Part shown: positions 1,108-62,655 of the stretch, in pieces
How the letters are laid out: each line of letters begins with the position of its first letter
How positions within the stretch are numbered: the stretch's first letter is position 1
NCBI GenBank assembly: GCA_031763025.1
Contig: JASSKH010000005.1
Coordinates: 8,429,514-8,493,513, forward strand
Reading direction: 5' to 3'
Length of the DNA stretch: 64,000 nt
Source: Macrocystis pyrifera
Lineage: Eukaryota; Sar; Phaeophyceae; Laminariales; Laminariaceae
The notes under the pieces: generated by a model
What the model was told of the DNA's origin: nothing
Databases searched by the model: none
What the model saw: only the letters and a program-made list of their open reading frames with translations
Program-made: the position numbers and the translations under genes

Positions 1108-1369
1108 TGTTATGGTATCCACTCTCCCCTGTTGTGGCGTTATGGTTTGTAGCAATCGTCCCCTCATCATACATGGCAGGCGTTGTCGCCTGTTTTTCTG
1201 ATGACCGCCTCGCCCCTTCGTTCAGAAGACATCTGGCGAGGCAAACAGCAACTAATACAAAAGCTTATACCATCGTCAAGCACCTCGTGTGAGTGACCAA
1301 AACAGAGCCAAAGGCATCAACCTGCTAGCAGTAGTCGGTCCCTAGGTCCATACTGCCTTACACTTAACA
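1108..1369 (+). repeat. 5' LTR of family-D TRIM
   Basis: 262 bp with TGTTA...TAACA ends. It aligns along its length with 1756-2032 and with minus-strand copies at 4033-4272 and 53393-53658. Confidence 0.85.
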
Positions 1370-1370
1370 C

Positions 1371-1388
1371 TGGCGTCGTCGGCAGAAC
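1371..1388 (+). other. Primer-binding site, tRNA-Ser type
   Basis: TGGCGTCGTCGGCAGAAC one base downstream of the 5' LTR. Its complement ends in CCA and resembles the 3' end of tRNA-Ser. Confidence 0.75.
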
Positions 1389-1755
1389 GCGTTTGGTACC
1401 TGTTCGAGGTCTGTTTTTTTTTTTCGCCGACAATCTGGCTGTTCGCTCTCGTGCTCTGTTTTTTCGGCTTCTTGGTGTTTATTTGATGTCTTCTCCTTTT
1501 GGTGATTGCGTCGAGTTTAAGCCCTCGATTTAGCTTCCGGGTAGTTCTAGCTTATTTTGCCTGCTTCCGCGTATCCGTACTTTCGGAGTTGTTGTTGTCT
1601 GACTCGCGATGTCCACGTGTAACCGGCTACCGCCTTACAGGTTAGAGGTGTGGGAGTGGGGGGAAGTGCCGCATCTTCGATCCATTCTCCGAATTCTGCA
1701 GATTGTTTTTGTTCTTACCATGAATCTGCGTATACGGCTCTTCAGGGTGGGCTAG

Positions 1756-2032
1756 TGTTATGGTATCCCCTCTCCCCTGTTGCGGCGTCATATCCCCTCT
1801 TCCCTGTTGTGGCGTTATGGATTGTAGCAATCGTCCCCTCATCATACATGGCAGGCGTTGTCGTCTGCTTTTCTGATGAGCGCCTCGCCCCTTTGTTCAG
1901 AAGACATCTGGCGAGGCAAACAGCAACTAATACATGAGCTTATACCATCGTCAAGCGCCTCAGAACAGAGCCAAAGGCATCAACCTGCTAGCAGTAGTCG
2001 GTCCCTAGGTCCATGCTGCCGTACACTTAACA
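1756..2032 (+). repeat. 3' LTR of family-D TRIM
   Basis: 277 bp. Relative to the 5' copy it has an extra 'cctctcccctgttg' block near the start and lacks about 12 bp around 1960. The two LTRs have therefore diverged since insertion. Confidence 0.85.
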
Positions 2033-2642: not shown

Positions 2643-2993
2643 TGTATTATAAGGCTTAGATTGGGTAGGCGATCGGTTAACCTTTTACCAGTAGCCCAAC
2701 GGACGAAGACCTTAACAAAATTGCATCATCGGCAGGACATGGGTCGTTGGTCGTGAGTTTGAATCTGACGTCCACCACGATAAACGTTTCTTAAAAAGAA
2801 AGTAACTTTCCTCATGTCAAGAATCTGAAAAAAATACTTCTGGACCCCCAAAAATTGGAACCGCGTGTTGGTGGCACGTCGACCCGTTCGTGTATGCGGT
2901 CTGTTCCAGGTGGGAAAGTGTTGTAAGGCTTAGATTGGGTAGTCCATCGGTTAACCTTTTACCAGTAGCCCAACAGAGACTAAGACCTTAAAA
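2643..2993 (+). mobile_element. Very small LTR element (SMART-like), family S
   Basis: About 351 bp in all. Two direct 75-bp repeats lie at 2643-2717 and 2919-2993, about 88% alike by eye, both with GGTTAACCTTTTACCAGTAG and ending in GACCTTAA. The first is followed by TTGCATCATCGGCAGGACAT, a mutated copy of the tRNA-Ser primer-binding site. The second is preceded by the purine-rich CAGGTGGGAAAG. The roughly 200-bp interior has no coding capacity. A clear target-site duplication is not visible here, but a better-preserved copy at 20136-20490 has one. Confidence 0.75.
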
Positions 2994-13631: not shown

Positions 13632-13649
13632 GTCCTGCCGACGACGCCA
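13632..13649 (-). other. Primer-binding site, tRNA-Ser type
   Basis: Perfect TGGCGTCGTCGGCAGGAC on the minus strand, two bases after the end of the family-G LTR. Confidence 0.8.
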
Positions 13650-19862: not shown

Positions 19863-20131
19863 GACGCGGCCTACAGTGAGTAGCTTTTATAGGTTTTGAG
19901 CCCAAACAAAAGTAAGAGTGTGTCAATACATTAGCAAGAGAAGAGTGCGGAGAAAAGGCAACAGACCAGGACGAATGAATACGTACTGAATGGGGTCACC
20001 ACGAGGTCTTGTCCAATCTATCAATAGGTTCACCGGTTCGGTTATCTGGGTTTTTTTTTTTTGTTCTTGCTGTATGTATGTGATCGACGTCAAAGCTTGC
20101 AATGACAACACATACATTAACGCTTGTTATG
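19863..20131. other. No gene recognised
   Basis: A/T-rich spacer with no domain-bearing frame. Confidence 0.4.
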
Positions 20132-20135
20132 GGAA

Positions 20136-20490
20136 TGTCAAGGTCTTAGTGTGCTCAGCTACAGGTAAAATATTAACCAATCGCCTACCGAATCTAAGTA
20201 TTACAGCACTCTCCCCTTCAGAACAGTGGGTCCTTGGACTTCGTGTGGGGCAGTATGTTCCTAGTTCGATGTTCTTAACGATCTCTGGGGACCCAGGAAG
20301 AATCTTTAATCAGATTTTTGATATGAGAAAATTCCCTTTTCTGTAAAAAGCGTTTGCAAGGCGGGCGTGAGATTCGAACTGACGACCAACGACCCATGTC
20401 CTGCCGACGACGCCATGTATTAAGGTCTTAGTCCGCTGGGCTACTGGTGAAGGGTTAACCAATCGCCTACCCAATATAATCCTTATAACA
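20136..20490 (-). mobile_element. Intact very small LTR element (SMART-like), family S
   Basis: 355 bp on the minus strand. The 5' LTR is 20416-20490 (75 bp, TGTTATAAGG...AATACA). A perfect TGGCGTCGTCGGCAGGAC primer-binding site abuts it at 20398-20415. The interior is about 210 bp and non-coding. Purine-rich GAAGGGGAGAG precedes the 3' LTR at 20136-20205 (70 bp). GGAA flanks both sides (20132-20135 and 20491-20494), a 4-bp target-site duplication. The LTR contains TAGCCCAGCGG and the interior GTTCGAATC, which resemble tRNA A and B boxes. Total size is close to the SMART elements reported from grasses. Confidence 0.85.
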
Positions 20491-20705
20491 GGAACAGTAT
20501 CCCGGCTTACTTACCGTTTTTTTCTTAATTGGACCACAGCGCAGCAGTTGGTAGCTCATACAGGGTACAGGGCCCGTGGATTCGAAGTTTTCTACAACGC
20601 GGGACGCAAGATTGCGCTTGAAGGGTCAAATACTATGATCTGAAATTTCTACACCTCGGACAGGTCATGATCTACTATAGATCATCTACCTATGTAGTCC
20701 CTCAA

Positions 20706-52639: not shown

Positions 52640-52934
52640 TGTTGTGGTAATGATTTGAATTAGGCTGAAAGGTCTGTAATTACCTGGGTTCAGGTATTGG
52701 GATCGCATTTGTAGTACTTGGGAAGCGTAAATTAGATGGAAAACTAGAGGTTTTCCCAGCGAGGCACAAGCCTTGCTCTCATTCTCTTGCTCTCAGTCTC
52801 TCATCGAGTACGAAAGGCTTAAAGCTGCCCTTCTTTTATCTCTAAGTAAACAACACACGTGAGTCCCAACGAGTACTCGCTCAATAGGCAAACCAAGCAA
52901 GGGATACAAAGTGTCCCGACCTTGTATTTTAACA
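52640..52934 (+). mobile_element. 5' LTR, family B
   Basis: 295 bp, TGTTGTGGTAATG to TTTAACA, followed by GGGCGTCGTCGGCAGGAC. A short 'ttgctctcagtctct' duplication enlarges it. Confidence 0.8.
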
Positions 52935-53050
52935 AAGGGCGTCGTCGGCAGGACTCTCCACTTGTTGGTACGCGTGGTGTTCACTCATTTTTCGCCGTGC
53001 TTTTGTCGAGTAAGTTTCGTGCTCGCCATCTCCTCCGCACACGACGCACG

Positions 53051-53128
53051 ATGGAGACTCAAGAGGTGGGACGGTCTGCTTCCCCTCGCGGTGGCCACGC
53101 CACTGGGGCCCAGGGCCCCGACGACGCC
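53051..53128 (+). pseudogene. Gag-like start, truncated
   Basis: ATG opening METQEVGRSASPRGGHATG. Cut after about 26 codons by the small LTR sequence that begins near 53129. Confidence 0.6.
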
Positions 53129-53391
53129 ATAGTCCGCTGGGCTACAGGTAAAAGGTTAACCGATCGCCTACCCAATCTCAGCCGTATAACACTCTCCCCC
53201 CCTGGAACGGACCGGATATACGGGTCGACGTGTCACCAACACGCGGTTCCAATTTTTGGGGATCCAGAAATATTTTTTTCCAGATTTTTGACACGAGGAA
53301 ATTCACTTTTCTTTAAAAAGCCATTATTTCATGGTGGACTTGAAAATCGAACACGACCAAAGACCTACAGTATGTCCTGCCGACGACGCCA
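53129..53391 (-). mobile_element. Truncated family S element joined to a family D LTR
   Basis: The family-S 3' LTR (53129-53191, rc start TGTTATACGG) is preceded on the minus strand by poly-purine GGGGGGGAGAG. The interior extends right to a perfect primer-binding site at 53374-53391. Where the family-S 5' LTR should follow, a family-D LTR is found instead. Confidence 0.7.
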
Positions 53392-53392
53392 G

Positions 53393-53658
53393 TGTTAAGT
53401 GTAAGGCAGTATGAACCTAGGAACCGACTACTGCTAGCAGGTTGATGCCTTTGGCTCTGTTCTGGTCACTCACACGAGGTGCTTGATGATGTTATAAGCT
53501 CCGGTATTATTCGTTGTTGTTTGCCTCGCCAGATGTCTTCTGAACGAAGGGGAGAGGCGGTCATCAGAAAAGCAGGTGATAACGCCTGCCAGGTATGATG
53601 AGGGAACGATTGCTACAAGCTATAACGCCGCAACAGGGGAGAGGGGAATACCGTAGCA
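53393..53658 (-). mobile_element. 5' LTR, family D
   Basis: 266 bp on the minus strand, TGCTACGGTATTCCCC to CTTAACA, with the same one-base spacing to the primer-binding site as at 1369-1371. Confidence 0.8.
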
Positions 53659-62567: not shown

Positions 62568-62655
62568 AGAAAACCTTGACACATGGCGTCGTCGGCAGGA
62601 CTTGGTTTTTCAAATACTGGTGAGGTCGCTGGTTCGATCTTCACCCTCTCCGTCC
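62568..62655 (+). mobile_element. Family S element fragment with primer-binding site
   Basis: LTR end CCTTGACACA followed by a perfect TGGCGTCGTCGGCAGGAC (62583-62600), then GGTTCGATC as in the family-S interior. Confidence 0.7.

Follow-up and report, generated by a model that had tools for sequence, protein, structure and literature searches.

How can a retroelement of 355 bp with no coding capacity be copied and inserted into a genome, and what primes and moves it? The question is raised by a locus of the giant kelp Macrocystis pyrifera, at positions 20136-20490 of a 64,000-nucleotide stretch of contig JASSKH010000005.1 (the whole stretch that was analysed, hereafter the window). A sequence-only reading had described it as a tiny long terminal repeat (LTR) retrotransposon with complete retroviral-style signals in a stramenopile-like genome. 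The host is indeed a brown alga, and 73-bp LTRs, a primer-binding site (PBS) and a purine tract were all read at these positions. We conclude with high confidence that the element is a terminal-repeat retrotransposon in miniature (TRIM), a non-coding LTR retrotransposon primed by tRNA-Ser and probably mobilised by a helper. We refer to its family as TRIM-A. Its parts, with 5' and 3' in the sense of the element and flanked by a target-site duplication (TSD), are:

20136..20490, minus strand: the TRIM-A copy under study, 355 bp (direct reading, repeat search and genome search)
20418..20490, minus strand: 5' LTR, 73 bp, TGTTATAAGG...CCTTAATA
20433..20443, minus strand: A-box-like motif TAGCCCAGCGG near the 3' end of the 5' LTR (direct reading)
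20416-20417, minus strand: 2-base spacer from the 5' LTR to the PBS
20398..20415, minus strand: PBS TGGCGTCGTCGGCAGGAC, the exact complement of the tRNA-Ser(AGA) 3' end plus CCA
20371..20379, minus strand: B-box/T-arm motif GTTCGAATC in the leader (direct reading)
20209..20219, minus strand: polypurine tract GAAGGGGAGAG, immediately before the 3' LTR
20136..20208, minus strand: 3' LTR (direct reading and repeat search)
20132-20135 (left) and 20491-20494 (right), unstranded: TSD GGAA, 4 bp

The perfect GGAA duplication claimed earlier is thus present on both sides. The 18-bp PBS is real as well, but its supposed abutment on the LTR is an appearance confined to this copy: two bases (mostly TA or AA) usually separate the LTR end ..TTAACA from the PBS in the copies read. 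The two LTRs are only 77% identical across 69 aligned bases (repeat search), which marks this as an old copy. The longest frames within it are of 54 and 40 aa, and a 118-aa frame enters from the flank. It is an old member of a high-copy TRIM family without coding capacity. A retrozyme reading was rejected because no Rfam hammerhead ribozyme match was found, either in 20050-20560 (E up to 5) or in the window and 8 loci (gathering scores).

The family was traced in the 537,376,219-base, 223-contig M. pyrifera assembly. A search with 20136-20490 gave at least 51 matches (40 of 1780 first-look candidates scored), and those listed, the query itself excepted, share 75-84% identity with it. Paired LTRs are indeed present, in 36 two-LTR units from the window and 28 loci, and the short non-coding interior holds for 34 units (193-224 bp). 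Typical TRIM-A LTRs have the ends TGTTAT..TTAACA (57 of 74 LTR instances start with TG), and a tract such as GGGGGGGAGAG precedes the 3' LTR. Tandem arrays with shared LTRs were read at three loci (L002, L026 and L029). Exact 4-bp TSDs flank 6 of the 36 two-LTR units, versus 14/1260 in the control. Once units that belong to arrays or have a PBS trailing them were set aside, 18 free-standing units remained, of which 6 have exact TSDs, versus 0/306 mismatched pairings. Two-LTR copies beyond these 18 include one with the TSD AATA (L056) and two with none (L044 and L108). A 17-mer from the LTR end gave 0 matches in viral_contigs and 1 in genome_contigs, in a Tatlockia metagenome-assembled genome (L041), which we take as chance.

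We had expected LTRs to be much closer within copies than between them, and this was not upheld. LTR-LTR distances have a median of 0.20 (Jukes-Cantor, 33 pairs). Own pairs are only slightly closer than re-paired ones (0.183 versus 0.194, 33 pairs, permutation p 0.002), global-alignment identity is 0.851 for own pairs versus 0.839 between copies, and the own partner is closest for only 1 of 36 5' LTRs. So slight a difference is what one would expect of copies that are mostly old and came from one burst.

What primes the element can be read from the PBS, which is complementary at 18 of 18 positions to the 3' end of tRNA-Ser(AGA) plus CCA. Five intact genes for this tRNA (L125, L126, L128, L131 and L144) end in GTCCTGCCGACGACG, without an encoded CCA. 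A genome search for the PBS-complement 15-mer gives 1320 occurrences, versus one for a reversed control. Among 68 PBS sites read, 59 carry the exact 18-mer, and the LTR end in front belongs to TRIM-A (14), a sister family TRIM-B (4), a long-LTR family (18), families D (7), E (6) and C (5), or singletons (14). One PBS is common to these unrelated LTR types. A search of viral_contigs with a tRNA-Ser 3'-end pattern found no match.

A second tRNA-Ser-type 3' end, ..CCGTCGACG, would pair with the PBS variant TGGCGTCGACGG of some TRIM copies. Among the loci read there is no intact gene with this end, only a repeat (L117-L121) and LTR-fused or CCA-tailed copies. The repeated unit carries a tRNA-Ser T-arm and 3' end without CCA and is flanked by inverted repeats. 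Further TRIM-A PBS variants (middle TATC, CATC, TGTC or ATC) match neither of the tRNA-Ser 3' ends found. Family C (L065, L092, L093, L096 and L107) also has its LTR end followed by the PBS, with the exact 18-mer in 3 of 5 loci; its leaders, which read GTTCGATTC in three of the five, bear a distant likeness to the TRIM-A interior.

Behind the PBS, TRIM-A commonly carries GGTCGTGAGTTCGAATCTCAC, with 21 nt identical to part of a host tRNA-Pro(AGG) gene (L010). Might the element then be a TRIM of the Helenus/TRIMp3 type, driven by RNA polymerase III (Pol III) from a promoter split between an A box in the LTR and a B box behind the PBS? Both boxes are enriched around the 68 PBS sites: a B box lies within 70 nt after the PBS in 14 on the sense strand and 5 on the antisense strand (shuffled mean 0.8), and an A box within 70 nt before it in 14 and 2, respectively (shuffled mean 1.0). 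A sense-strand B box is present in 22 of 34 TRIM-A interiors, and three TRIM-B copies (L045, L048 and L061) have the A box TAGCTCAGTAGG in the LTR before the PBS and GTTCGA directly behind it. However, related families may owe their B boxes to inheritance, in which case these are not independent, and the element gave no match to a tRNA model. Runs of T4 or longer occur in 30 of the 34 TRIM-A interiors, and of T5 or longer in 21. Since T4-T8 runs also lie downstream of all five host tRNA-Ser(AGA) genes, a Pol III transcript should stop inside the TRIM. Transcription from such a split promoter is in our view unlikely. A TTCGAA palindrome in a presumed hairpin loop could possibly have a role in RNA dimer formation. 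One of the TRIM-B copies (L045) has the TSD CATG.

What moves the element is suggested by chimeras that join TRIM-A to the long-LTR family. A small member of the latter, L049, measures 880 bp and has LTRs of 278 bp, a PBS identical to that of the TRIM and the TSD TTAT, and the family ends TGTTA..CTTAACA resemble the TRIM ends. The L049 interior has an 84% match to the 3' part of a copy of about 10 kb (L112, L115 and L116), whose LTRs are 91% identical, the 3' long LTR lying in L116. Domain matches in L115 are to RVT_1 (8.7e-10), RT_RNaseH (2.9e-27) and NADAR (6.5e-19). On its sequence the copy appears to be a broken element of Ty3/Gypsy type with a NADAR domain, carrying a TRIM interior-LTR unit behind its PBS.

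Four chimeras were picked from the 68 PBS sites for disagreement between LTR and interior. L110 consists of a long LTR, PBS, TRIM interior, TRIM LTR, altered PBS and long-LTR end (TSD ATAC). L111 runs from TRIM LTR, interior and TRIM LTR through the PBS to the long-family interior, from its position 190, and a long LTR (TSD GCAG). L113 has a TRIM LTR, PBS, long-family interior from position 103 and long LTR (TSD TTGG). The fourth is the copy of about 10 kb itself (L112/L116), with TRIM interior and LTR behind the PBS and then a shortened PBS (TSD ATCG, placed by alignment as the 3' LTR end is mutated). In all four composites one 4-bp TSD spans both the TRIM-A and the long-LTR part. Since one chimera is a Ty3/Gypsy-type copy, that lineage, with its LTRs of about 280 bp, is the likely helper of TRIM-A. 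A second reading of a further candidate locus, L097/L114, showed that it is not a chimera of this kind.

Such composites could also form by DNA recombination or nested insertion, with no switching during reverse transcription. Recombination between copies is plausible because LTR-sharing TRIM arrays exist, and some of the chimera joins are imperfect. Yet the joins coincide with the PBS sequence, and each composite sits in a single 4-bp TSD; in L111 and L113 the LTR at one end differs in type from that at the other. We regard an origin at the DNA level as quite improbable.

The primer has also left copies of itself. Reading 48 loci with tRNA-Ser sequences (L117-L164) showed 32 in which the tRNA is fused to an LTR in the order LTR end, CCA, tRNA. 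The triplet at the join is CCA in 28, GCA in 2, CAC in 1 and ATA in 1, and the LTR is of the long type in 18, TRIM-B in 6, E in 4 and TRIM-A in 4. The TRIM-A ends are fused to tRNA-Ser complementary DNA (cDNA) with CCA in L145, L148 and L155 and with GCA in L163. Two of the loci (L153 and L154) resemble near-copies of a single event.

Two positions set these copies apart from the genes. Position 34 is A in 5/5 tRNA-Ser(AGA) genes and G in 24 of the 28 fused sites covering it, 17 of these having been chosen for G; in the set not selected on this base (n=11) there are 7 G, 3 C (two reading CGA), 1 T and no A. An anticodon-region pattern allowing any base at 34 gave 58 sites genome-wide, with A in 5 (the five genes), G in 21, C in 28 and T in 4, the C and T sites mostly counted by pattern and not read. 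At position 58, which is the A of the T-loop (nt 66 when counted plainly), 5/5 genes have A. The set not selected on this base (n=17) has 13 T, 2 G, 1 C and 1 A, the first fused set being left out of this count because the search pattern fixed an A there. Homology to the tRNA starts at nt 1-6 in 13 fused sites, 22-29 in 13 and 32-49 in 6, although a stricter alignment shifts some of these starts.

We read the fused sequences as reverse transcripts of mature tRNA-Ser, in which inosine 34 would be copied as G and N1-methyladenosine 58 (m1A58) as T, with the CCA included. Copying is read as halting in part at position 26, where N2,N2-dimethylguanosine (m2,2G26) is presumably the modification behind the partial stop. 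That ordinary tRNA genes or pseudogenes happen to lie beside LTRs was rejected as very improbable: homology does start at nt 1-6 in 13 of the 32 sites and ARAGORN calls three of them tRNA genes (L134, L142 and L143), but 28 of 32 have CCA at the join with an LTR end directly behind it, none has the A34 of the genes, and T58 is found in 13 of 17 unselected sites where all five genes have A58. In one locus (L160), two LTR ends flank a full tRNA-Ser copy, one of them with TGGC and the other, inverted, with CCA, as if two LTRs had been joined head to head via the primer.

The idea that TRIM-A is a simple tRNA-derived short interspersed nuclear element, its LTRs being repeated monomers and its PBS an A box, is hardly credible: TGGCGTCGTCGG does resemble an A box and is followed by the tRNA-Pro-like B-box/T-arm, but the TG..CA ends, the 4-bp TSDs, the purine tract before the 3' LTR and an 18-mer common to unrelated LTR families and matched to the tRNA-Ser 3' end all speak against it.

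The reading that we favour is thus a helper-mobilised TRIM, and its life cycle may be pictured as follows. The element would keep only the cis signals for reverse transcription and integration. Its genomic RNA, which we guess to come from RNA polymerase II, would be primed at the PBS by mature tRNA-Ser(IGA), and the purine tract and LTRs would support the two strand transfers. Ty3/Gypsy-type proteins, supplying reverse transcriptase and integrase in trans, would integrate the cDNA with a 4-bp target duplication. TRIM and helper RNAs may be packaged together, and template switching at the PBS during strand transfer could then yield the chimeras. Evidence for the primer of TRIM-A is unusually direct; that for the helper is good but indirect. 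Beyond the sequence-only reading, the analysis gives the strand and the 2-base spacer, identifies the primer tRNA and a likely helper lineage, and reveals the chimeras.

Several points weigh against this account. The helper copy read is broken, and its integrase match (PF00665), although in the expected place, has an E of 0.001 and falls below Pfam's curated cut-off. The purine tracts of the TRIM and the long-LTR family differ, and the evidence would fit a close relative of that family as the mover equally well. Behind the PBS, the long-family interior starts only at position 190 in L111 and 103 in L113, and in L110 and L112 the second join falls within a PBS copy that is altered or shortened. 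Only the first PBS join is tidy, the far sides being partly deleted or altered, which lowered our confidence slightly. Among the free-standing units, 12 of 18 have no exact TSD, 4 of those matching at 3 of 4 bases (control 21/306). The TRIM copies listed in the genome search, which were located through likeness to an old copy, are old, and neither a transcript nor a particle nor a new insertion was observed.

Elsewhere in the window, further elements carry the same signals:

2643..2993, plus strand: second two-LTR TRIM-A copy, PBS 2721-2738 with 3 mismatches, no matching TSD
53128..53658, minus strand: chimera of a family-D LTR (53658-53392), PBS (53391-53374), TRIM-A interior, shortened TRIM-A LTR and PBS piece
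1108..2032, plus strand: family-D small LTR element, PBS 1371-1388 (1 mismatch), TSD GTAA at 1104-1107 and 2033-2036
52655..52954, plus strand: LTR of the long-LTR (helper-type) family, then a PBS at 52937 (1 mismatch)
62584..62601, plus strand: exact PBS belonging to a different or far diverged small element, with the B box GGTTCGATC downstream
13632..13649, minus strand: exact PBS behind a family-E LTR end

The second two-LTR copy at 2643-2993 had been noted earlier and is real, its LTRs being 90% identical across 68 bases (repeat search). Two supposed fragments did not hold up as such. The one at 53129 is the chimera, in which a family-D LTR joins a TRIM-A interior and LTR at the PBS; it offers no TSD to check because its 3' end is lost. 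At 62568-62608 the 36-base match to the TRIM (89%) covers the PBS plus roughly 15 bases from the end of an LTR. The leader there differs and the LTR profile detects no LTR, which makes this another element or a far diverged one. Upstream of the family-D element at 1108-2032 is a stretch resembling a TRIM-B LTR. As a chance control, the LTR profile gave 0 matches in the shuffled window and in shuffled random stretches. The window holds 3 interior-bearing copies, versus 0 profile matches in 40 kb sampled as ten 4-kb stretches at arbitrary places.

No TRIM from a brown alga was found in the literature searched, which lay outside subscription journals and Repbase. TRIMs have been described in green algae and in the red alga Chondrus (PMC4717578) and classified automatically in the haptophyte Tisochrysis (PMC5963040). 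The likeness to grass small LTR retrotransposons (SMARTs) drawn in the sequence-only reading fits in size, FRetro129 measuring 292 bp with 85-bp LTRs (PMC3281118). Like TRIMs and SMARTs, the kelp element is under 1 kb and non-coding, with TG..CA LTR pairs, PBS, purine tract, TSDs and LTR-sharing tandem arrays; it differs in its brown algal host, its tRNA-Ser primer and its PBS-joined chimeras with a helper-type family (PMC3281118, PMC4717578), and in a TSD of 4 bp where the SMART has 5 bp (PMC3281118).

Helenus/TRIMp3 elements are also tiny LTR elements with tRNA-like A and B boxes, PBS and polypurine tract; animal Helenus has a 4-bp TSD, and bivalve Helenus can use tRNA-Ser (PMC10886601). In Helenus, however, the tRNA-like sequence is inside the LTR (PMC10886601), whereas the kelp TRIM has its T-arm/B box behind the PBS, in the leader, and no more than an A-box-like motif in the LTR. 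Cassandra shares small size, Pol III-type sequence and tandem arrays but has 5S rRNA in its LTR (PMC10886601, PMC4717578), and no 5S match was found in the kelp TRIM. The kelp helper-type copy, with its reverse transcriptase, RNase H and NADAR matches, resembles the NADAR Gypsy elements of Ectocarpus, from which it differs in being broken and in carrying a captured TRIM unit (PMC12477816). The Ectocarpus LTR elements described in that paper span 3.9-14.5 kb, so none there is of TRIM size (PMC12477816).

Taken together, we think it probable that kelp LTR elements with a common tRNA-Ser primer site swap whole LTRs there during reverse transcription, giving insertions with two LTR types, and that the reverse transcriptase of this lineage often copies past m1A58 to m2,2G26 or the primer end, leaving a genomic fossil record of the modified mature tRNA (I34 as G, m1A58 as T, and CCA). 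Helpers of TRIMs are commonly deduced from nothing more than similarity of sequence; PBS-joined hybrids, each within one TSD, make a more direct link between TRIM-A and a Ty3/Gypsy-type lineage. The tRNA fossils, in turn, name the primer from DNA alone. In HIV-1 (human immunodeficiency virus type 1) m1A58 normally sets the plus-strand stop (PMC13191261), and the fossils would make the same question testable in a brown alga.
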